Positions 1,257-31,610 of a stretch of DNA of 31,610 bases are shown here, one piece after another. The first letter of the stretch is position 1. Each line of letters starts with the position of its first letter. Position numbers and translations under genes: made by a program. Source of the stretch: a virus; the IMG/VR virus record IMGVR_UViG_3300026519_000049, positions 1 to 31,610 of that record; one strand, given 5' to 3'. Under the pieces are notes generated by a model that saw nothing but the letters and a program-made list of their open reading frames with translations, was not told where the DNA came from and made no database searches.

Positions 1257-1280
1257 GACTGGCCGGATCGGAAAGGAGAC
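1257..1280 (+). promoter_or_regulatory. Fourth copy of the shared mRNA leader with strong ribosome-binding site
   Basis: These 24 bases are identical to the 3' part of the three 65-bp promoter-leader copies at 25765, 28079 and 29915, ending in GGAAAGGAGAC. Here the TTGACA/-10 portion is absent. TTGACT at 1255-1260 merges into the leader, so this copy is probably a translation or post-transcriptional element rather than a promoter. It drives the annealing-protein gene, with AAGGAG nine to ten bases before the ATG at 1286. Confidence 0.6.
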
Positions 1281-1285
1281 ACCAC

Positions 1286-1969
1286 ATGGCCATTGACGAG
1301 AAAGCGGCCGCCGAGCTGAGGCGGCCATTCCCACCCGAGGACGTCGACGTCCTCCCGAAACCGTTGCGGCGGAACGCCGAGCGGGCCTGGTGCGACACCT
1401 GCAAGGCGACGCACGGGCAGCCGGCCGTCCACCTCGACTATGTCGGCCATGCCGCCGTCACCGACCGGTTGCTCGCGGTCGACCCCGAATGGTCGTGGGA
1501 GCCGATGGCGACCGACGAACGGGGGTTGCCGGTGATCGGCCGCAACGACGCCGGGCAGGCGACGATGTGGATCCGTCTCACCGTCTGCGGGGTGACCCGC
1601 ATCGGGGTCGGCACCGCGAAAGCCGGGAAGGCGGACGTGGAGAAGGAGCTGATCGGCGACGCGATCCGGAACGCGGCGATGCGGTTCGGCGTCGCGCTCG
1701 ACCTGTGGCGCCGCCACGAACGGCCCGCCAAGACCGGCGGCGACACGGATGGGACTGCTGACGGCGCCGACGGTGGAACGCCGCCGAATCCTGTGGTGGC
1801 GATCAAGGTCGCCGCCGCCGACCGGTGGGGTGTCGACGTCGCCCGGGAGGCGTGGCAGACCCTCTTCCCGGAAGGTGACCCCGAGCCGGACCAGGTGTCT
1901 GGCGGACGGGCCGACGACGTCCTGCTGGCATTGGAGCAGATCGTCACCGAGATTGAGGAGGCACGATGA
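1286..1969 (+). CDS. Rad52-like single-strand annealing protein (putative)
   Basis: A 227-residue protein. Residues about 45-150 carry the block seen in phage Rad52/Sak-type recombinases: HLDYVGHAAVTDRL, then DPEWSWEP, then MWIRLTVCGVTRIGVGTA, and KELIGDAIRNAAMRFGVALDLW. That order (DRL, WSWEP, beta hairpin, Gly/Ala helix RNAAMRFG) is what I recall for this family; I cannot run a profile search. Such proteins anneal complementary single strands during phage recombination. The C-terminal 60 residues are variable and may bind an SSB or nuclease partner. The gene has the strong shared leader at 1257-1280. Its stop overlaps the next ATG. Confidence 0.65.
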   Translation: MAIDEKAAAELRRPFPPEDVDVLPKPLRRNAERAWCDTCKATHGQPAVHLDYVGHAAVTDRLLAVDPEWSWEPMATDERGLPVIGRNDAGQATMWIRLTVCGVTRIGVGTAKAGKADVEKELIGDAIRNAAMRFGVALDLWRRHERPAKTGGDTDGTADGADGGTPPNPVVAIKVAAADRWGVDVAREAWQTLFPEGDPEPDQVSGGRADDVLLALEQIVTEIEEAR

Positions 1970-3543: not shown

Positions 3544-3809
3544 CCCTCCGTATCCGACATGTCGACCCCAACGACCTGACCCCACATCCGGACAACCCAC
3601 GCATCATCGACGATGACGCCAAACGGCGCCTCACCCGCATCATCGACCAGTTCGGGTTCGTCGAACCGCTCGTGGTCAACCGCCGTACCGGCCGCCTCGT
3701 CGGCGGCCATCAGCGCCGCCAGATCGCCATCGACCTCGGCATCGACAAGGTGCCGGTCGTCGAGGTGGACGTCGACGACGACCTGCTGCCGGATCGGGGG
3801 CGGCGATGA
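3540..3809 (+). CDS. Stand-alone ParB/Srx-type N-terminal domain protein
   Basis: An 89-residue protein made up of little more than a ParB-type domain. It carries TPHPDNPRIIDDDAKRRLTRIIDQFGFVEPLVVN (box I region) and then GRLVGGHQRRQIAIDLGIDKVPVVEVD, where GGHQRR stands for the box II G-x-x-R nucleotide-binding motif. In many phages this domain is fused to the N-terminus of a DNA methylase. Here it precedes one as a separate gene, its stop lying in an ATGA overlap. There is no KorB/HTH DNA-binding half, so plasmid-style partitioning is unlikely. A role in DNA modification or nicking is plausible. Confidence 0.8.
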   Translation: MTLRIRHVDPNDLTPHPDNPRIIDDDAKRRLTRIIDQFGFVEPLVVNRRTGRLVGGHQRRQIAIDLGIDKVPVVEVDVDDDLLPDRGRR

Positions 3810-16467: not shown

Positions 16468-18294
16468 TTATGGTTTCGTCGCTGGTCGCTGCGTCCATGC
16501 TACCGGGCTGGCCGTGGCGGGCGGCGCCGCCGGGGATCCGGCGGGTGGCGCCGCCGACGCCGCCGGTGCGTTGGTGGTGGCGCCGGTGGGGAGGTTGCGC
16601 CACCATCCGCCGGATGACGTCACCGTCACCGGCATCGCCTGCCCGGCCTCGGACGCCTGGCCGACGGTGACGGTGCGGTGCGCCGTCACCGGCTGGGCCG
16701 TGGCGGTCTCTGATCCGGGGCCGATGGTGATGGCGCGGTTGGCTGCGACGGCGGCGGCGAGGTCGGTTTCGGCGGCCTGTCCGACGGTGACGGTGCGGTG
16801 GGCCGTCACCGGCTGGGCGGCGTCGGTCTCTGCGGCGAGGCGGACTGGGGTGGCGGTGCTGGTCGTCACCGCCGTCGCCTGGTCCGACTCGGCCGCCTTG
16901 CCGACGGTGGCGGCCTTGGCCGGCGTCACCGGTCTGGCAGTGGAGGTGGCCGCCGCCAGACCAACGGAGACGCCGCGGACCGCGGTGATCGGCTGGGCCT
17001 GCCCGGTCTCGGCGGGCTGTCCGACGGTGACTGTCCGGACCGCGGTGACCGCCGCCGCCTGCCCGGTCTCGGCGGCCAGACCGACCGGGACGGTTTTGCG
17101 CGGTGTCACCGCGCGGGCCGCCGACCCGGTTGCCGCCTGCCCCACCGGCACGGCTTTGGCCGACCCGACCGGCTGGGCGGTCGCAGTCTCTGATGCGACC
17201 GCGACGGTGATGGTCCGGACGGCGACGATGGGTTGTGCCGTGTCCGCCTCCGCGGCGGCACCGACGACCGCGGCTTTCGCCGACCCGACGGGCTGCGCCG
17301 TGTCCGTCTCGAGACCCTGTCCCACGGCGACGACCCGGACGGCCCGGATGGGCTGCGCCAGGTCGGTCTCCGCCGCCTGGCCGATCCCGAGATCCCGGGC
17401 GGTTAGCCAATCGACCGCCAGGTCGCGGTTGGTGCGGTATCCGGCGAGGCCGAACCGGCGGTTCCCGACGATCTGGGTGTCGGTGACGGTCAGCCACACG
17501 TCCGAGTCGACCTTCGCCCGGATCGTCGACCCGGACGCCTCGAGCTGGACGAAATAGTCGACGTCCGCCGCCAGGCTGCGGCTCTGGGATGCGATGTCGG
17601 TGTTGGATCCGTTGACGGTGCGGGTGATATCGAGGCGGCCCGCGGAGTCGAGCGCCGCCCGGTAGTAGGTCTGCGCCGTCGCCGAGAATCGGGCGCAGAT
17701 GCCGATCACACCGGACACCGACCCGACGAACCGGACCGGCCCGCCGACATAATGGTTGTCGGTGTCGAGGTCGTGTTCGGCCCGGGCGGCGGCACCCGAG
17801 TTGTTGGTCCGCGGGGTCGCGCGGTTGGAGACGGTCTGCCAGTCGTTCTGCACCTCGGTCCACGTCAGATCCGGGCCGAGAACGGTCGAGTCGGCCTGGT
17901 TGAACGACTCGGAGAAGGTGGCGGCTCGGATCGGCGGGGCGGCGAAGAGCAGCTCGCGGCACCACACCTCGACGAGGCCGGTCTTGGGGTTGGTGCGGGC
18001 AGCCGGCCAGCGGCCGGGCCGGGCGTGGACGGTGAGCAGCTCGGCGACGATGTGACGGACCGTCACCCCGTCCAACGTCACCGACAACATGTTCTCGAGG
18101 TGGCGACGCACCGCGGCCGGCAGGTGGGCGTCGGGGTCGTCACCGAGGTCGACAACAGGTCGGTGCGCATGGTCGGCGGCGACGACGGCGACCGGGCCGA
18201 GGTCGATGGCAGTCCACGTCCCGTCCACGGCGGAGGGGCGGCGGTGGTTGCCGGGGTGGCCGGTGCCGACCCAGCGGGCCGCCACCCACCGCAT
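16468..18294 (-). CDS. Lectin-like structural protein with thirteen 20-residue repeats
   Basis: A 608-residue protein. Residues 1-120 have no recognised domain (MRWVAARWVGTGHPGNHRRP at the start). Residues about 125-300 look like a concanavalin A/LamG-type lectin: TFSESFNQADSTVLGPDL, YYRAALDSAGRLDITR, VDYFVQLEASGSTIRAKVD, RRFGLAGY. Residues 302-561 are thirteen 20-residue repeats around VGQAAETDxAQPVTAxRxVT. The final 47 residues are Ala/Pro-rich. It lies between capsid accessory and connector genes, so a head fibre or capsid decoration that binds carbohydrate is likely; a tail protein in an odd place is the alternative. Its ATG overlaps the previous stop, and TAA ends it, rare in this window. 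Confidence 0.7.
   Translation of the reverse strand: MRWVAARWVGTGHPGNHRRPSAVDGTWTAIDLGPVAVVAADHAHRPVVDLGDDPDAHLPAAVRRHLENMLSVTLDGVTVRHIVAELLTVHARPGRWPAARTNPKTGLVEVWCRELLFAAPPIRAATFSESFNQADSTVLGPDLTWTEVQNDWQTVSNRATPRTNNSGAAARAEHDLDTDNHYVGGPVRFVGSVSGVIGICARFSATAQTYYRAALDSAGRLDITRTVNGSNTDIASQSRSLAADVDYFVQLEASGSTIRAKVDSDVWLTVTDTQIVGNRRFGLAGYRTNRDLAVDWLTARDLGIGQAAETDLAQPIRAVRVVAVGQGLETDTAQPVGSAKAAVVGAAAEADTAQPIVAVRTITVAVASETATAQPVGSAKAVPVGQAATGSAARAVTPRKTVPVGLAAETGQAAAVTAVRTVTVGQPAETGQAQPITAVRGVSVGLAAATSTARPVTPAKAATVGKAAESDQATAVTTSTATPVRLAAETDAAQPVTAHRTVTVGQAAETDLAAAVAANRAITIGPGSETATAQPVTAHRTVTVGQASEAGQAMPVTVTSSGGWWRNLPTGATTNAPAASAAPPAGSPAAPPATASPVAWTQRPATKP
16612..17391 (-). repeat. Thirteen tandem 60-bp coding repeats
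   Basis: The repeat array of the lectin-like protein: thirteen units of exactly 60 bp with no length variation. On the + strand, blocks such as CCGACGGTGACGGTGCGG recur. Units differ by many silent and replacement changes but keep Gly4, Glu8 (mostly), Ala12, Pro14 (mostly) and a basic residue at 19. The protein period suggests a repeated beta-hairpin or solenoid turn; recombination could alter the copy number. Confidence 0.8.
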
Positions 18295-25727: not shown

Positions 25728-25735
25728 GGGTGGGG

Positions 25736-25741
25736 ATGTTA
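25736..25741 (-). promoter_or_regulatory. Possible -10 box of a leaderless late promoter
   Basis: TAACAT on the minus strand, eight bases upstream of the TerS ATG, matches the actinobacterial TANNNT -10. Transcription would begin at or within a couple of bases of the start codon, which agrees with the lack of a ribosome-binding site. No TTGACA-like -35 is at the expected distance, so an activator may be needed, as befits a late promoter. Confidence 0.4.
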
Positions 25742-25764
25742 TCGGGTGTGGGGTGGGTTCCGGC

Positions 25765-25829
25765 TTGACATGTCCGGGCAGGGCTGATAATGTGCATGGT
25801 GTAAGGACTGGCCGGATCGGAAAGGAGAC
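25765..25829 (+). promoter_or_regulatory. Promoter-leader copy 1
   Basis: TTGACA (25765-25770), 17-bp spacer, TAATGT (25788-25793, TANNNT type; GATAAT at 25786 is an alternative -10), then a leader ending GGAAAGGAGAC. It is 65 bp long and almost identical to the copies at 28079 and 29915. It drives the first right-arm unit, with the ribosome-binding site five bases or so before the ATG at 25834, and is divergent from the TerS start. Confidence 0.8.
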
Positions 25830-25833
25830 GCAG

Positions 25834-26157
25834 ATGGCCGACACGACGAGGACCGCCAGGGTGGTCGAGCTGATGGATCGGGAGGGGCTGGCTGGGTGGA
25901 TGACCGGGCCGGACCGGGAGCGGGTCGCCGCCAAGGTGGCGGAGATGGCCGCCGACGTCGACGACAACACCGTGGTGATGATGGTGGTGGATGAGGCGGA
26001 GCGGGTCGGCACCGAGATCCGGGCCGCCTACAACCGGGCCGCCAGGGCCGGATCCCGGACGGCGAAGATGGACGCCGCCCGGGACGCCGACGTCGACGAG
26101 GGGACGGTCGACGGGTACTTCGCCGCCTTCGTCGCCCGCCTGCGGGCCGGACGGTGA
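25834..26157 (+). CDS. Hypothetical protein, first gene of right-arm unit 1
   Basis: A 107-residue, mostly helical, acidic/basic-mixed protein: RVVELMDREGLAGWMTGPDRERVAAKVAEMAADVDDNTVVMMVVDEAERVGTEIRAAYNRAARAG and DEGTVDGYFAAFVARLRAGR. No family is recognised. It is placed directly behind the strong repeated promoter-leader, so it should be among the most highly expressed early genes. The start is fixed by AAGGAG upstream of ATG 25834. Confidence 0.7.
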   Translation: MADTTRTARVVELMDREGLAGWMTGPDRERVAAKVAEMAADVDDNTVVMMVVDEAERVGTEIRAAYNRAARAGSRTAKMDAARDADVDEGTVDGYFAAFVARLRAGR

Positions 26158-26177
26158 CCGGACACGAGAAAGGAGAC

Positions 26178-26525
26178 ATGATGATGGAGCATCTGTGGAC
26201 GATGGAGACGGCCGACGGGACGACGGTGGAGGTGTGGCGGATGGCCGACCGGCAGGTCGGATTCGTCGCCGACGTCGACCGGCCCGCATCCGAGGGGCCT
26301 GGGTTGGCGAGGTGGTGGGAGCGGACGCTGTGGTTCGACACCGCGCCGGTCCCGATGACGGTCTGGATCGCCGCCGACGGACGGCCCGTCGCAGCCACCC
26401 CGAATAACGTCGACCTGTGGGAATGGCTCGACGGCCTCGCCGCCTTCGGCACGTTCCGGGTCGTCTGGACCACCGACGGCTACGACGACCTCGGCGCCGA
26501 CGAACTGCTGGAGAGGAGGATCTGA
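26178..26525 (+). CDS. Hypothetical protein
   Basis: About 115 residues, beta-rich and tryptophan-rich (HLWTMETADGTTVEVWRMADRQVGFVADVDRP, LARWWERTLWFDTAPVPMTVWIAADGRP). Three successive ATGs (26178, 26181, 26184) follow AAGGAG; 26181 or 26184 has the better spacing. GTG 26154, overlapping the previous stop, is a less likely start. No family is recognised. Its stop overlaps the next ATG by one base. Confidence 0.65.
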   Translation: MMMEHLWTMETADGTTVEVWRMADRQVGFVADVDRPASEGPGLARWWERTLWFDTAPVPMTVWIAADGRPVAATPNNVDLWEWLDGLAAFGTFRVVWTTDGYDDLGADELLERRI

Positions 26526-26989
26526 TGGCGAAGATGATGACGGCGGCGGTGTGGTGCCGCAGCTGCGACCTGTGGCGCCACGACATCGACCCGGGCGGCG
26601 CCTGCCCCAACTGCGGGATGCCGATGCTCCCCGAGGAGCCAGACCGATGGGAGGGGATGCACATCCCCCGCATCGGCGACGCCACCATTTGGATCGGAGT
26701 GCGGGTCGACCCCGCCGACCGGCCCGTCTGGGAGCGGCTCGAGTCGGTCGCCGACACCGCCGCCTCCGGATGCGTCATCCACGTCCGGGGTGGCATCTGG
26801 ACCGGCGCCGCAGTCTCCACCCACGACGGGTTCTGGACGGCGGTCGTCGGTCGGGACGACAAGACGGCGATCGTCCTCTGGTCCGACGACGCACCCCGCG
26901 GCGGTGACGGTCTCGCACCCGCCGCGATCTTCGACCGGGACGACCGGGCCGTCTGGGAGATGGTCCGCCACCTCCACGCCAGGCGGTGA
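26525..26989 (+). CDS. Zinc-ribbon protein of unknown function
   Basis: A 154-residue protein. The N-terminus carries VWCRSCDLWRHDIDPGGACPNCGMPM, a CxxC...CxxC zinc ribbon. The rest is a mixed alpha/beta domain (TIWIGVRVDPADRPVWERLESVADTAASGCVIHVRGGIW, FWTAVVGRDDKTAIVLWSDDAP). I do not recognise the family. Sharing an operon with a PP-loop protein may hint at nucleic-acid work, but that is inference. Confidence 0.65.
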   Translation: MAKMMTAAVWCRSCDLWRHDIDPGGACPNCGMPMLPEEPDRWEGMHIPRIGDATIWIGVRVDPADRPVWERLESVADTAASGCVIHVRGGIWTGAAVSTHDGFWTAVVGRDDKTAIVLWSDDAPRGGDGLAPAAIFDRDDRAVWEMVRHLHARR

Positions 26990-27288
26990 CCCAACCAACC
27001 CTCACATCAGGACGGTGGGTGGACGCACAACGGGAGGCGTCCACCCGCCTCCGCGCCGCCGCCGACACCGGAGACTGGCCGGCCGAATGCGCCGCCATCC
27101 TCCACCAGGCCGCCGACCACTGCGACCAGGCCACCGTCGACACCCCAACCGGCTGGTGGATGATCTGGCTGCCGCACATCGCCGCCACCTGGCGGATCGG
27201 CGACAGCCACCCCGACACGGACGTCGCCCAAGCCGCCGCACGGGTCCGCCGCACCATTCTCGAGGCCGCCACCGTGATGCCACCATGA
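26986..27288 (+). CDS. Hypothetical helical protein
   Basis: A 100-residue protein from a GTG in a GTGA overlap. REASTRLRAAADTGDWPAECAAILHQAADHCDQATVDTPTGWWMIWLPHIAATWRIGD is followed by a helix, DVAQAAARVRRTILEAATV. It is mostly helical. Nothing recognisable. Its stop overlaps the start of the PP-loop gene (ATGA), suggesting coupled synthesis. Confidence 0.6.
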   Translation: MTQPTLTSGRWVDAQREASTRLRAAADTGDWPAECAAILHQAADHCDQATVDTPTGWWMIWLPHIAATWRIGDSHPDTDVAQAAARVRRTILEAATVMPP

Positions 27289-28073
27289 CCACCATGCGGC
27301 ACATCGTGATGTTCTCCGGCGGTGTCGGCTCGTTCCTCGCCGCAGCCAGGACCGTCGACTTCTACGGCCCCGACGCCGTCACCCTGCTGTTCGCAGACAC
27401 CCGCATCGAGGACGACGATCTGTACCGATTCGTCGACGACGCCGCCGACCATCTCGGCGCAAAGCTCGTCACCATCGCCGACGGCCGCACCCCGTGGCAA
27501 CTATTCGCCGACGTCCGCATGATCGGCAACACCCGGGCGGACATCTGCTCGCGGGTGCTCAAACGTGACCTCATGCGCCGATGGATCGACGACCACGCCG
27601 ACCCGGACGACACCACCATCGTCCTCGGCATCGACTGGACCGAACATCACCGCTTCGACCGGGTGCGTCACCGGTGGAAACCGTGGACCGTCACCGCGCC
27701 GATGTGCGACCCGCCGCTGCTCGACAAACCCGAGATGATCGCCGAGGTGCGGCGCCGCGGCATCGAACCGCCACGCCTCTACCAGCTCGGATTCCCCCAC
27801 AACAACTGCGGCGGGTTCTGCGTCAAAGCCGGGATCGGCCAGTTCCTGCTCCTCCTCGAGAAACTCCCCGACCGGTATCGGGCGCACGAGGCCGAGGAGG
27901 AGCGGGTCCGACGGATCATCGGCAAAGACGTCGCGGTCCTCCGGGACCGACGTGGCGGCACCACCCGGCCGCTCACCCTCGCCGAGCTCCGCCGGCGGGT
28001 CGAGGCCGGCGGCGAGCAGCTCACCCTCGACGGCATCGACGAGTTCGGCGGATGCGGATGCGCCATCGAATAA
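27285..28073 (+). CDS. PAPS-reductase-like PP-loop ATPase
   Basis: A 262-residue protein of the adenine-nucleotide alpha-hydrolase superfamily. The PP-loop SGGVGS (11-16) follows a beta strand (HIVMF). LLFADTRIEDDDLYRFVDD, the ADICSRVLKRD segment with Cys87, and IVLGIDWTEHHR fit the phage/DndC-like PAPS reductase group. Cys174 and Cys178 (HNNCGGFCVKAGIGQF) and the terminal GGCGC could hold an Fe-S cluster or relay sulfur. Such proteins activate a substrate by adenylation, often for sulfur transfer. Whether the target is DNA, tRNA or sulfate cannot be told. The nearby C5-methyltransferase makes a nucleic-acid target attractive. Confidence 0.8.
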   Translation: MTTMRHIVMFSGGVGSFLAAARTVDFYGPDAVTLLFADTRIEDDDLYRFVDDAADHLGAKLVTIADGRTPWQLFADVRMIGNTRADICSRVLKRDLMRRWIDDHADPDDTTIVLGIDWTEHHRFDRVRHRWKPWTVTAPMCDPPLLDKPEMIAEVRRRGIEPPRLYQLGFPHNNCGGFCVKAGIGQFLLLLEKLPDRYRAHEAEEERVRRIIGKDVAVLRDRRGGTTRPLTLAELRRRVEAGGEQLTLDGIDEFGGCGCAIE

Positions 28074-28078
28074 ACCCC

Positions 28079-28143
28079 TTGACATGTCCGGGCAGGGCTG
28101 ATAATGTGCGGGATGTAAGGACTGGCCGGATCGGAAAGGAGAC
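28079..28143 (+). promoter_or_regulatory. Promoter-leader copy 2
   Basis: TTGACA at 28079, a 17-bp spacer, TAATGT at 28102, then a leader with the same 24-base 3' end as the other copies. It differs from copy 1 only around the presumed transcription start. It lies six bases after the stop of the PP-loop gene and starts the second right-arm unit at ATG 28148. Confidence 0.8.
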
Positions 28144-28147
28144 ACAC

Positions 28148-28564
28148 ATGGCCACCACCAGCATCACCCACGGAACCCGCACCTGGGTCCTCAACACCGA
28201 CGGCGACGTCTGGGACCGCGACGAGCTCGTCACCGAACTCGTCCGGGATCTGCACCCCCGCCACCTCACCCCGGGCGACGACGGCACCCACATCGTCCGC
28301 TGCCCCGACTGCGGCCAGACCGAGATCTGGACCGACCGGGAGCTCGCCGACCACGGCCGCTGCCGCACCACCGACGCCCGGTGTGTCTGCGACGACGTCG
28401 TCGACGACCTCGACGAGGTCCGCCTCGTCGACCTGATCGACACCCGCCGCTTCGACCGCCGCATCCGCGGCGCCGCCGTCGAGGCGCTCGTCGACCGTCT
28501 GGAGGCCGACGGGTGGATCGTCAATGTCCAGGACGGCGAGATCACCGTCTGGGAGATCGTCTGA
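28148..28564 (+). CDS. Hypothetical protein with Cys cluster
   Basis: A 138-residue acidic protein: WVLNTDGDVWDRDELVTELVRDL, then HIVRCPDCGQTEIWTDRELADHGRCRTTDARCVCDDVVDD, then helices ending GWIVNVQDGEITVWEIV. CPDC with the following Cys residues suggests a zinc-binding module in mid-protein. It is the first gene of unit 2, behind a strong promoter. No family is recognised. Confidence 0.65.
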   Translation: MATTSITHGTRTWVLNTDGDVWDRDELVTELVRDLHPRHLTPGDDGTHIVRCPDCGQTEIWTDRELADHGRCRTTDARCVCDDVVDDLDEVRLVDLIDTRRFDRRIRGAAVEALVDRLEADGWIVNVQDGEITVWEIV

Positions 28565-28593
28565 CCCGCACCGACCCGAGAGGAGACACCGAC

Positions 28594-28881
28594 ATGACCA
28601 CCATCACCACCAGGACCGACCTCCGCAACCACATCGCCGACCTGTTCCAGGAATGGGACGTCGACAACTACGACGGCTTCGTCGACGCCATGACCGCCGC
28701 ATGGCATCGGCTGTGGGGGCTGCGGAACGCCGCCTCCCACCAGGATGTCGACCGGATCGCCGCCGTGCTCGCCCGCCTCGCCGACCACGACCCGACCCAG
28801 ACCGTCGCCGACGCCAGGGCCGAACTCGCCGAGCTGGGCCTGTCCCTCGCCGACATCGACCGGGTCCTCGCCGAGCTGTGA
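28594..28881 (+). CDS. Small helical hypothetical protein
   Basis: A 95-residue protein: TDLRNHIADLFQEWDVDNYDGFVDAMTAAWHRLWGLRNAASHQDVDRIAAVLARLADHDPTQTVADARAELAELGLSLADIDRVLAEL, all helical. ATG 28594 follows GAGAGGAGAC, which echoes the end of the shared leader. Its stop overlaps the methyltransferase GTG. It may act with that enzyme; no family is recognised. Confidence 0.65.
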   Translation: MTTITTRTDLRNHIADLFQEWDVDNYDGFVDAMTAAWHRLWGLRNAASHQDVDRIAAVLARLADHDPTQTVADARAELAELGLSLADIDRVLAEL

Positions 28882-29918
28882 ACGTCGGATCCCTCTGCAC
28901 CGGGGTGGGCGGCCTCGACCTGGCCGCCCACCACCTGTGGGGCGACGTCGACGTCCGATGGGTGTCCGAGATCGACGTCGACGCCTCCGAGGTGCTCGCC
29001 GCCAGATGGTCCGACGTCCCCAACGTCGGCGACATCACCACCGTCGACCCGGACCGTCTCGACCCGGTCGACGTCATCACCGCGGGGTTTCCCTGCCAGC
29101 CGGTCTCCCAGGCCGGTCGGCGCCGCGGCGCCGACGACGACCGGTGGCTCTGGCCGCACGTCGCCCGCATAGTCGACGCCATGAGACCCGCCACCGTCAT
29201 CATCGAGAACGTCCCGGGGCTGGTCACCATCGACGGCGGCAGCCTGTTCGGCGGCATCGTCGACAACCTGCAACGGCTCGGATACAAGGTCGGCTGGACG
29301 GTGATGGCGGCGGCGGAGATCGGCGCCTGCCATCGGCGCCGCCGCGTGTTCGTCGTCGCATCCACCGCCGACACCCCACCGCCGCTCACCGCCTCGGGCC
29401 CGGTTGGCGGTGGGGTGGGCCGTCTGATGCCGACCCCGACGGCGTCGGACCACCGCGGTCCCGACCTCGCCCGCCGCCACCGTCCACGATCAGGCGGCGA
29501 TGACCTCTGCACCGTCGTCGAACGGCTCCTCCCCACCCCGGTCGCCCGGGACGCCCGGGGAGGCCGCAACGCCACCCGCATCCGCGGACCCGAATCGACC
29601 GGGCATCTCGGCCGCACCCTCTGCGACGTCGCCTTCGCCGACTGGTGGGGCGAATACCGGGACGCCATCGGCCGGCACGAACGGGCGTTGGGTCGGCCGG
29701 CGCCGCCGCCGGTGGTGGAGACGGCCCGTTCTCGAGGCCGCCTGAACCCGCGGTTCACCGAGTGGATGATGATGCTGCCCGACGGGTGGGTGTGCGACAT
29801 CGTCGACCGGCGGGCGGCGGCGTTGCGGCTGCTCGGCAACGCCGTCGTCCCCGCCCAGGCAGCCGAGGCGGTCCGACGGATCCTCGGCACCCCGACCCTG
29901 TTCGCCGACACCACTTGA
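28878..29918 (+). CDS. C5-cytosine DNA methyltransferase
   Basis: A 346-residue enzyme that methylates cytosine at C5 from SAM. Motif I is LCTGVGGLDLA (6-16). Motif IV is GFPCQPVSQAG with catalytic Cys73, motif VI IIENVPGL (109-115), motif VIII HRRRRVFVVAS (152-162). Motif X, RLLGNAVVPAQAAEAV, is near the C-terminus. The target-recognition region is about 165-310, so the length is normal. It starts at GTG in a GTGA overlap. Its TGA lies inside the TTGACA of promoter copy 3. It probably shields phage DNA from host restriction; no cognate nuclease is nearby. Confidence 0.93.
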   Translation: MNVGSLCTGVGGLDLAAHHLWGDVDVRWVSEIDVDASEVLAARWSDVPNVGDITTVDPDRLDPVDVITAGFPCQPVSQAGRRRGADDDRWLWPHVARIVDAMRPATVIIENVPGLVTIDGGSLFGGIVDNLQRLGYKVGWTVMAAAEIGACHRRRRVFVVASTADTPPPLTASGPVGGGVGRLMPTPTASDHRGPDLARRHRPRSGGDDLCTVVERLLPTPVARDARGGRNATRIRGPESTGHLGRTLCDVAFADWWGEYRDAIGRHERALGRPAPPPVVETARSRGRLNPRFTEWMMMLPDGWVCDIVDRRAAALRLLGNAVVPAQAAEAVRRILGTPTLFADTT

Positions 29919-29979
29919 CACGTCCGGGCAGACCGGGTAACTTGCGTGGTGTAAGGACTGGCCGGATCGGAAAGGAGAC
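29915..29979 (+). promoter_or_regulatory. Promoter-leader copy 3
   Basis: TTGACA at 29915, a 17-bp spacer, TAACTT at 29938 as -10, and the same leader end as copies 1 and 2. Changes are concentrated in the -10 region (GGTAACTT instead of GATAATGT), so strength or regulation may differ. It overlaps the methyltransferase stop codon and heads the unit starting at ATG 29984. Confidence 0.75.
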
Positions 29980-29983
29980 GCAG

Positions 29984-30475
29984 ATGGCCGACACCACCAT
30001 GATCACCGTCGACGGGACGTTCGCAGCCGCGATCCGCAGCCGCAACGTGTCCCCCAAGACGCTCACCAAAGCCGCCCGGATCGTCGCCGACGGCCGCATC
30101 CACCCCACCGACGACCCGGGCGTCTACCGGGTCGACGGCGACCACGGCTCCTACTGGGTCGGGGTCGTCAGCGACCACCGGGGCGTCTGCACCTGCCCCG
30201 CCGGGACGCACGGCAAATGGTGCGCCCACCTCGTTGCCGCCATCGTCACCCACACCGCAACGACGTCGGCCGCCCCGGAGACGCAGGGCGGCCGACTGGC
30301 CGGACACGACGGTGCCGGACCGGATGGCGACGACCATACCAGCTGCCGCGACTGCGGTGTCGACCCCGAATGGGACGGCGGCCTCTGCTGGGACTGCTGG
30401 CATCGCGCCGCCGACGAAGAGGCGGGGGAGCGTGGATACGCGGCGATGGTCGACGACCAGCTCGGAGCCTGGTGA
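29984..30475 (+). CDS. SWIM zinc-finger protein with second zinc ribbon
   Basis: A 163-residue protein. Residues 45-90 form a SWIM domain: YRVDGDHGSYWVGVVSDHRGVCTCPAG with Cys69 and Cys71, then GKWCAHLVAAI with Cys80 and His82 (CxC...CxH). Near residues 119-136, CRDCG...CWDC forms another zinc ribbon. SWIM domains bind DNA or proteins and occur in transposase, Rad51-pathway and plasmid proteins. The protein is small for the family and lacks a catalytic partner domain, so a regulatory or adaptor role is likely. Confidence 0.75.
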   Translation: MADTTMITVDGTFAAAIRSRNVSPKTLTKAARIVADGRIHPTDDPGVYRVDGDHGSYWVGVVSDHRGVCTCPAGTHGKWCAHLVAAIVTHTATTSAAPETQGGRLAGHDGAGPDGDDHTSCRDCGVDPEWDGGLCWDCWHRAADEEAGERGYAAMVDDQLGAW

Positions 30476-30485
30476 AAGGAGCATG

Positions 30486-30710
30486 ATGCAAACCGAAACC
30501 GTAGGTCCGGTGACGTCACCGGACGAGATCCCGGAGGTGTGCGGCGTCGCCGAGTTCGCCGCCGCCGCCGGGGTGAAAACCGACACGATCACGCGATACC
30601 GCTGGGCGGGGAAACTGCCCGACCCGGACTGGGTGACGGCCAGGCAGGTGCTGTGGTCCAGAGCCACCGTGTGGGACTGGATCCAGCATCGGCGACGGCG
30701 ACGTCGGTAA
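30486..30710 (+). CDS. Helix-turn-helix DNA-binding protein (LPDPDW type)
   Basis: A 74-residue protein; ATG 30486 is four bases after GGAG and 30483 is the alternative. EVCGVAEFAAAAGVKTDTITRYRWAGKLPDPDWV, then VLWSRATVWDWIQHRRRRRR. This is an AlpA/excisionase-like winged helix ending in a polybasic tail. It is paralogous to the protein at 13946-14194 (shared RW.G.LPDPDWV, W...TV..W). It may regulate the repeated promoters or late genes. No integrase is seen to justify calling it an excisionase. Confidence 0.7.
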   Translation: MQTETVGPVTSPDEIPEVCGVAEFAAAAGVKTDTITRYRWAGKLPDPDWVTARQVLWSRATVWDWIQHRRRRRR

Positions 30711-30888
30711 CATCCGCCGCACCGGAGCCGGTGCGGTGACACCACCCCGACCCTCGACGGGTCGACCACCGAAGCGACAAAGCCGAGGTGGGCGCAGGGT
30801 TCGTCTGTGGGGAAGTGACGGTGACCCCGACAGGGGACGGGTGGTGTCACCGGACCGGCCAGGAGGGTCGGACCGGAAAGGAGACACG
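30711..30888 (+). promoter_or_regulatory. Structured non-coding leader/terminator region
   Basis: Contains CCGCACCGG-AG-CCGGTGCGG (30717-30736), a likely terminator of the preceding gene, and CGACCC-TCGAC-GGGTCG (30748-30764). A 14-bp inverted repeat has arms at 30734-30747 and 30839-30852. Its left arm overlaps the first hairpin, so the two folds exclude each other. The 3' end, CGGACCGGAAAGGAGAC, echoes the shared leader. The frame from GTG 30736 is open but codes no convincing protein. It may be an attenuator or a regulated leader; no known riboswitch class was recognised. Confidence 0.45.
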
Positions 30889-31020
30889 ATGTATGAATGC
30901 CGCCGCTGCGGCGCCGTCCTCGTCGGGGACGACGCCAGGGCAGAGCACCGGGCCGAATACGGGTTCGGCCATGCGGGCCGCCCCGTCGACGTCATGGAGG
31001 TGGACCGTGGGGACGCATGA
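30889..31020 (+). CDS. Mini C2H2-like zinc-finger protein
   Basis: A 43-residue protein, MYECRRCGAVLVGDDARAEH followed by RAEYGFGHAGRPVDVMEV. CxxC followed by two His (H20 and H28) suggests a single zinc finger. ATG 30889 follows GGAAAGGAGAC. The stop overlaps the next gene. Such mini-proteins often accompany actinophage regulatory genes; the partner is unknown. Confidence 0.6.
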   Translation: MYECRRCGAVLVGDDARAEHRAEYGFGHAGRPVDVMEVDRGDA

Positions 31021-31219
31021 CGAGCGGGCGGTGTCGATCACCGCGCCGGGGATGGGCGTCACCGTCGTCCGCCGCCGCCGCATCGGACCGTCCGGATGGG
31101 AGGTCACCGTCCACCGTCCCAACGGCGACACGATCCGGATGGGGTTGCATCCGACCGTCCGGGCCGCCGTCGAGGCGGTCGCCGAAGCGGCCGCCCGTGA
31201 GATCCGGATGATCGGCTGA
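31007..31219 (+). CDS. Small hypothetical protein upstream of whiB
   Basis: A 70-residue protein with a beta-rich first half (VSITAPGMGVTVVRRRRIGPSGWEVTVHRPNGDTIRMGLHPTV) and a helical end (RAAVEAVAEAAAREIRMIG). The GTG at 31007 is selected because GGAGG (30996-31000) is six bases away. Its stop overlaps the whiB ATG. No family is recognised; the amphipathic beta sheet plus helix recalls single-domain nucleic-acid-binding folds. Confidence 0.55.
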   Translation: MGTHDERAVSITAPGMGVTVVRRRRIGPSGWEVTVHRPNGDTIRMGLHPTVRAAVEAVAEAAAREIRMIG

Positions 31220-31506
31220 TGGGATGGAGAGACCAGGCGGTGTGCCGCGGCGTCGATTCGATGTGGTGGCCCGAGCGGGGACTCACCGTCCCCGTCGACC
31301 CGGGCCGTCTCGAGCGCCGCTACCGCGCACAGATCCGCCTCTTCTGCGACCGATGCCCCGTCGTCGCCGAATGCCTCGACGACGCCCTCTCCTCCAACTC
31401 CAAGTATTACGACATTTTGGGGGTGCGGGGCGGTTTGACGCCGCGGGAACGGGCGTCGATCCGATACCGCCGGCAGAAGGCCGCGGCGATGCGGGAGGCG
31501 GGATGA
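31219..31506 (+). CDS. WhiB-family Fe-S transcription regulator
   Basis: A 95-residue protein with the four WhiB cysteines: Cys9 (WRDQAVCRG), then Cys43, Cys46 and Cys52 in LFCDRCPVVAECLDDAL. The G-V-R-G-G turn (68-72) replaces the usual G[VI]WGG and is followed by LTPRERASIRYRRQK, the basic DNA-contact end. WhiB proteins hold a [4Fe-4S] cluster and bind sigma factor region 4. Phage copies such as WhiB of TM4 can interfere with host WhiB control. The Trp-to-Arg change in the turn is notable because that Trp contacts sigma in host proteins. The family fixes the host as actinobacterial. Confidence 0.9.
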   Translation: MGWRDQAVCRGVDSMWWPERGLTVPVDPGRLERRYRAQIRLFCDRCPVVAECLDDALSSNSKYYDILGVRGGLTPRERASIRYRRQKAAAMREAG

Positions 31507-31610
31507 TGGCGACCATCGCCGAGCTCATCGACGACGTCGCCTCCACCCTCGGCCATTGGATGCCCGCCGACGCCCTCGTCGACCACGTCGTCGACCGGTT
31601 CGGCGCCAAC
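31503..31610 (+). CDS. Unknown protein, 3' end cut by window
   Basis: The ATG (31503 or 31506) overlaps the whiB stop. The 36 visible residues run TIAELIDDVASTLGHWMPADALVDHVVDRFGAN with no stop before the edge. The helical pattern could be the start of a helix-turn-helix domain. Nothing more can be said. Confidence 0.5.
   Translation, partial: MMATIAELIDDVASTLGHWMPADALVDHVVDRFGAN

Follow-up and report, generated by a model that had tools for sequence, protein, structure and literature searches.

A repeated promoter-leader block before early genes of a tailed phage, and a leader copy that stands at a start codon without its promoter

Introduction

The window analysed here, a 31,610-nucleotide stretch of viral DNA (IMG/VR virus record IMGVR_UViG_3300026519_000049), carries three near-identical copies of a promoter joined to a conserved leader. 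It is one entire contig (G000:C34) of a 340-contig, 2.98-Mb genome assembly and represents a tailed-phage genome in which the gene at each contig end is cut. The question raised by these repeats is why conservation should continue beyond the promoter and through the leader as far as the start codon. The most probable answer, to which we assign roughly two chances in three, is that each copy is an early-gene expression cassette in which a SigA-like promoter is combined with a start-associated leader for translation initiation.

Three promoter-leader copies before early gene units

Copies 1 to 3 (Table 1) share a single layout, in which TTGACA, 17 bp, TANNNT, six variable bases, 30 invariant bases (TGTAAGGACTGGCCGGATCGGAAAGGAGAC) and a few more bases are followed by ATGGCC. 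Similarity across this block of ~69 bp starts one base before the -35 element and fades within the first codons. These limits coincide with those of a functional cassette, which favours the two-part model. Pairwise comparison over 70 positions, starting with the C that precedes the -35 and ending just ahead of the ATG, gives 5 differences between copies 1 and 2, 8 between copies 1 and 3, and 11 between copies 2 and 3. The 30-nucleotide TGTAAGGACTGGCCGGATCGGAAAGGAGAC is the longest word present three times in the window; in 200 dinucleotide shuffles of the window, the longest three-copy word had a mean length of 12 and a maximum of 15.

All three copies have the features of an actinobacterial SigA promoter (-35 TTGACA and -10 TANNNT, 16-18 bp apart). 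The pattern TTGACA-N16-18-TANNNT is found three times on the two strands of the window, against 0.02 expected, and every occurrence is one of these copies. The differences between copies 1 and 3 fall at 8 of 37 promoter positions and at none of 33 leader positions (Fisher p = 0.006). Five of the eight are in the spacer, two are in the -10, where TANNNT stays intact, and one is just past the -10. Perhaps the copies spread by duplication or recombination, with stronger constraint thereafter on the leader than on the promoter.

A preliminary description of this stretch had already placed the three copies correctly at 25765, 28079 and 29915, with the right hexamers and the 17-bp spacer, and had observed that each heads a separate unit and that conservation extends well past the promoter. 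Each of the three SigA-like promoters indeed stands before a unit of early genes. Two details need adjustment: the invariant leader is real, although its longest three-copy word is 30 rather than 31 bases, and copy 3, said to differ mainly in the -10, has only two of its eight differences there.

A leader copy without promoter

Two further copies of the leader, both lacking the promoter, were missed in the preliminary description. Copy 4 consists of the last 26 leader bases plus ATGGCC and is located 6 nucleotides past the stop codon of the upstream gene, inside an operon, where it precedes the gene for a single-strand annealing protein (SSAP). Copy 5 is degenerate. When the window is scored with a weight matrix, copies 1-4 reach 39-40 bits and copy 5 reaches 23.1 bits, and no score elsewhere exceeds 12.9 bits. 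All five copies are on the + strand and end 1-7 nucleotides ahead of early starts, and none is found in the late block. The copies, their boundaries, their separability and their restriction to early genes can be read from the sequence. Because copy 4 stands alone at an operon-internal start codon, the leader is best regarded as belonging to the start codon and as separable from the promoter, and not, as first described, as one unit with it. The same copy makes a translational role directly testable.

The leader carries a Shine-Dalgarno (SD) sequence, GAAAGGAG, of which 8 nucleotides can pair with the usual 16S rRNA 3' end, and which is located 6-7 nucleotides ahead of ATGGCC in an open stretch. 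The host anti-SD is assumed here, since a host 16S rRNA gene was not found in the assembly. There are seven occurrences of AAAGGAG in the window, compared with 0.5 on average in shuffled sequence. All are on the + strand directly before early-gene starts, and none precedes any of the 27 late genes. In addition, GCC is the second codon of 4 of the 51 predicted genes, and these are exactly the four leader genes. Predicted accessibility of the SD is 0.82-0.90 in these four genes, whereas the mean for the others is 0.46 (Mann-Whitney p = 8e-5).

Thus, the proposed cassette would have two parts. Part A would be a strong promoter for the host sigma factor (SigA-like), with a transcription start predicted ~6-8 nucleotides past the -10. 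Part B would be a start-associated leader of ~26-35 nucleotides that places the long SD in an open stretch before ATGGCC and probably enhances translation. Parts A and B together precede three early units, so that each unit would be transcribed from a separate start and would initiate translation at a high rate. Within the third operon, part B alone would raise the translation of the SSAP gene.

Several observations count against this model. The -10 hexamers TAATGT and TAACTT are a poor match to the Escherichia coli consensus, and a simple sigma-70 scan calls neither. Within the leader, GGCCGGATC plays no part in pairing with 16S rRNA, and a strong SD alone is therefore insufficient to explain why the leader is invariant. 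Similarly, the invariant GACTGGCCGGATC does not pair with the 16S rRNA 3' end; its invariance may stem from a structure of the leader in which the two GGCC arms pair, from the binding of a factor or from nothing more than recent copying. Finally, there are only three or four copies in one genome and no close relative with the same leader was found, and so recent duplication could explain part of their identity.

Occurrence in other genomes

The preliminary description proposed a motif search over related phages. Words from the leader and the promoter were searched in 50,697 phage records, IMG/VR and 99 related genomes, and this yielded neither a copy of the cassette nor a close relative with the same leader. 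The IMG/VR word matches, two in each of the searches that gave any, have no cassette around them and were taken as chance or unrelated. Among the 99 related genomes, two weak matches (L005, L006) have in common only an SD context of the CGATCGGAAAGGAGAC type before other genes, and two more (L007/L008) match only in part and over a short length. Neither the relatives of the SSAP gene nor those of the methylase carry comparable repeated leaders. Within the assembly, the leader's 14-base core has one other occurrence, an unrelated 14-mer on another contig, and the promoter part has none. The leader is phage-specific and is not a common host sequence.

Genes with a similar stretch are present in two genomes of the same family or order (CGATCGGAAAGGAGAC in L006 and CCGGATCGAAAGGAGAC in L005), and the 3' part of the leader may therefore imitate a good local ribosome-binding context.

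Searches with the terminase returned only relatives whose identity, over most of the protein, is at most ~45%, among them several IMG/VR contigs whose terminases are ~40-44% identical to that of the window. Two relatives with ~40% identical terminases (G395 and G396) have their own repeated promoter-leader-SD blocks, with sequences unrelated to those in the window; a third (G397) has no such SD sites. In G396 (L010), copies at positions 3581, 25918 and 26446 of the contig have CGGC..GCCG hairpins followed by CAAAGGAGACGAACATG. Two of them have a TAGGAT-type -10 located 16 bp from TTGCCA or TTGACG, and two head small genes, with a methylase next, between terminase and portal. There are four copies in G395 (L009/L084 330-1530, and L099), which read TTTACA-N16/17-TA(G/C)TAT and then have ACACACGAAAGGACAAGACAATG-type starts. 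Because the window and these two distant relatives share a two-part arrangement with unrelated sequences, it is a recurring design, present in phage groups outside cluster K of the mycobacteriophages, and not the oddity of one cluster. Judging from these genomes, the design recurs and the sequence does not, and its usual customers are accessory or early genes.

In three of the four G395 copies a hairpin is located just upstream of the SD, wherein the sequence varies and the pairing is kept (AGGC..GCCT, GCCGG..CCGGC, GGC..GCC). The -35 of these copies lies within an 18-bp palindrome, GCTTTACAGCTGTAAAGC, which is perfect in two copies and imperfect in two. The palindrome and the compensating hairpin are likely an operator plus a leader hairpin.

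Comparison with known start-associated repeats

The closest parallel is with the start-associated sequences (SAS) of cluster K mycobacteriophages, known since 2011, whose role is still unknown. These 13-bp elements occupy ribosome-binding positions of non-structural genes and are conserved beyond 16S pairing (PMC3203893). About half of them are accompanied by an extended block (ESAS) with SigA-like hexamers 17-18 bp apart and an inverted repeat (PMC11373665). A 2025 survey of 188 cluster K phages states that SAS and ESAS function still needs experimental verification (PMC12699233). Like these elements, the repeats in the window have one orientation, a ribosome-binding position before non-structural genes, an SD core with conserved bases that do not pair, and a preference for ATG. 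In four copies in the window, 26 nucleotides around GAAAGGAG are conserved, which exceeds what 16S pairing involves. Also as in cluster K, only a subset of copies (three of the four leader copies in the window) has an upstream -35/-10 block with that spacing. However, the sequences are unrelated, the window element is ~26 nucleotides long rather than 13 bp (GGGATAGGAGCCC), and its promoter block lacks the 17-bp inverted repeat. There are 4-5 copies in the window compared with 11-19 in cluster K, and the window is a ~32-kb contig from a non-mycobacterial assembly. A search of the window for GGGATAGGAGCCC with at most 2 mismatches gave one 2-mismatch match, in the late block, with 1.15 expected.

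Microbacterium cluster EF phages have SAS-like motifs, GGGAAAGGACCCC (PMC7302621), with the same position, the same complementarity to 16S rRNA and an upstream block. That block is only weakly conserved in cluster EF, whereas it is nearly identical among the copies in the window, and the window has no match to GGGAAAGGACCCC with up to 2 mismatches. A 26-bp start-associated repeat is found upstream of 8 hypothetical-gene starts in Citrobacter phage Mordin (PMC4611695). It is similar in length and position to the leader but unrelated in sequence, and no promoter has been reported within it. The cluster A stoperators and the 17-bp cluster O palindromes are likewise short repeats, more densely placed in the non-structural region of the genomes of actinobacterial phages (PMC4351075), although, unlike the repeats in the window, they are not closely tied to start codons.

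In position, gene class, orientation and optional promoter, the window element thus resembles SAS plus ESAS. It departs from both the sequence consensus and the inverted repeat, and for these reasons we file it with neither published family (cluster K or EF).

Alternative explanations

The preliminary description took the conservation to suggest a shared RNA or protein target. Part of this conservation needs no third party, because the lone leader at 1257 shows it to be start-associated (8-nucleotide SD pairing, open SD, ATGGCC). A target is nevertheless possible. In its broadest form, the leader, as RNA or DNA, would be recognized by a phage or host regulator such as WhiB, a helix-turn-helix (HTH) protein, a repressor or an RNA-binding protein, and the four genes would be a true regulon. 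The invariant nucleotides do reach beyond the SD, and unit 3 encodes both a WhiB and an HTH protein. Moreover, the repeated promoters of G395 have the palindrome GCTTTACAGCTGTAAAGC over the -35, and a regulator is suspected for the cluster K ESAS promoters, which also have inverted repeats (PMC11373665).

The copies in the window are less accommodating. They contain no inverted repeat with arms of at least 8 bp; the best dyads in the cassette are 4+4 perfect, or 6+6 imperfect in copy 3, and there is only an 8-bp palindrome, GACATGTC, that is broken in copy 3. The longest antisense match to the leader within the window is a chance 10-mer, and at gathering thresholds the window matches no Rfam 15 family. 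The usual site of WhiB action is the -35, via SigA, and not a leader, and the promoter-less copy 4 speaks against a purely transcriptional target. We therefore consider regulation of this kind unlikely.

Another possibility is an RNA hairpin switch formed by pairing between UGGCCG of the leader and UGGCC of the start-codon region. The AUG would then be held in a stem and the SD in a loop, and translation would be sensitive to a factor or to standby binding of the ribosome. All four copies keep the two arms, GGCC of the leader and ATGGCC of the gene start, the stem is present in the minimum-energy fold of each, and GCC as second codon is confined to leader genes. Unfortunately, the self-complementary GGCC is nearly constant in both arms, which leaves next to no covariation by which the stem could be judged. 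Shuffling the leader RNA gives folds of about equal stability (z 0.3 to -1.9), and the AUG is not less accessible than in other genes, which makes the switch distinctly unlikely.

The two-part model could also be extended. Perhaps the leader is a phage-specific translation-initiation code, in which a dedicated factor, or a phage-made change of the host ribosome, favours mRNAs with the element, and all copies form one translational regulon. We hold this to be very unlikely; if it were true, the SAS elements would gain a function.

It is highly improbable that the copies are merely scars of recent duplication or recombination whose only function is that of an ordinary promoter and ribosome-binding site. 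In favour of scars, copies 1 and 2 are near identical and no close relative with the same leader was found. However, the copies begin and end where a functional cassette would, divergence has affected promoter and flanks but not the leader, another start codon is preceded precisely by a leader-only copy, and the arrangement persists in distant relatives whose sequence is unrelated. A minimal upstream frame with an attenuating role is scarcely credible: a leaderless start-stop, (A/G)TGTAA, is found ~6 nucleotides past the -10 in all three promoter copies (25794-25805, 28108-28119 and 29944-29955), but it is missing from copy 4, three copies cannot reveal selection, and the transcription start at which it would lie is only predicted.

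Gene layout and other features of the window

Gene starts were taken from a simple gene caller, and two were corrected by hand. Early genes on the + strand run from 25834 to the right end of the window and from its left end to 4936. The late genes on the - strand, from 25727 down to 4927, comprise endolysin, tail fibre, tape measure, major tail, major head, protease, portal and terminase. No terminators were found between units 1-3, and the proteins that head these units have no mutual homology beyond a common MADT start.

Table 1. Positions of the leader copies, related sites and gene units
Feature	Position	Strand	Details
Copy 1	25764-25833	+	-35 TTGACA 25765-25770; 17-bp spacer; -10 TAATGT 25788-25793; leader 25800-25829; ATGGCC at 25834
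Copy 2	28078-28147	+	-35 28079-28084; -10 TAATGT 28102-28107; leader 28114-28143; ATGGCC at 28148
Copy 3	29914-29983	+	-35 29915-29920; -10 TAACTT 29938-29943; leader 29950-29979; ATGGCC at 29984
Copy 4	1257-1291	+	leader, SD and ATGGCC without promoter (GACTGGCCGGATCGGAAAGGAGACACCAC-ATGGCC)
Copy 5 (degenerate)	30862-30887	+	GGAGGGTCGGACCGGAAAGGAGACAC; without promoter; before ATG at 30889
SD-only site	26161-26180	+	ends in AGAAAGGAGACATG; before ATG at 26181; GAAAGGAGAC is the sole part in common with the leader
SSAP gene	1286-1969	+	headed by copy 4; phrog_3290, E 4.9e-47
Unit 1	25834-28073	+	four genes of unknown function, then PAPS-reductase-like gene (27285-28073)
Unit 2	28148-29918	+	two genes of unknown function, then C5-cytosine DNA methyltransferase (28878-29918)
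Unit 3	29984-31610	+	SWIM-like Cys/His protein (by eye), HTH protein (30486-30710), small genes, WhiB (31219-31506), gene cut by contig end
Unit 3, continuation	left end to 4936	+	RusA, SSAP, replication O, ParB-like, methylase
Late block	4927-25727	-	lysis, tail, head, terminase; without leader copy or AAAGGAG
Contig C143 (L110, G000:C143), segments matching the window ends	854-972 and 1236-1501 of C143	reverse complement	

The repeats had been described as a regulon of the right arm, an assignment that does not hold. A 3,236-base contig of the same assembly, C143, contains the last 119 bases of the window (100% identical), 263 further bases and then the first 266 bases of the window (95%). 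It completes the gene that the right end interrupts, by eye one for an HTH protein, and then supplies the missing N-terminus of the RusA-like gene at the left end. C143 is a mosaic sister and not the same molecule as the window, and it indicates that the two ends of the window are neighbours. Since it bridges the ends and another leader copy is present at the left end, the right arm is an artefact of the contig break; most likely there is a single early block that the assembly divided, and the right arm is not a natural unit.

Back to back with the promoter of copy 1, the - strand at 25728-25750 has TAACAT 8 bp upstream of the start codon for the terminase small subunit, without a recognisable -35. 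This site may be a late promoter that is leaderless and depends on an activator.

Inside the replication O-like gene, positions 2459-2565 hold tandem GGTTCCGGTCCAGACCGGAAACAG repeats followed by units of the AACCGTCAAC(A/C)G type, which resemble the iterons of a lambda-type origin within O. A run of repeats with a 60-bp period is located at 16644-17376, in a late gene on the - strand (16468-18294), and would encode repeated units of 20 residues.

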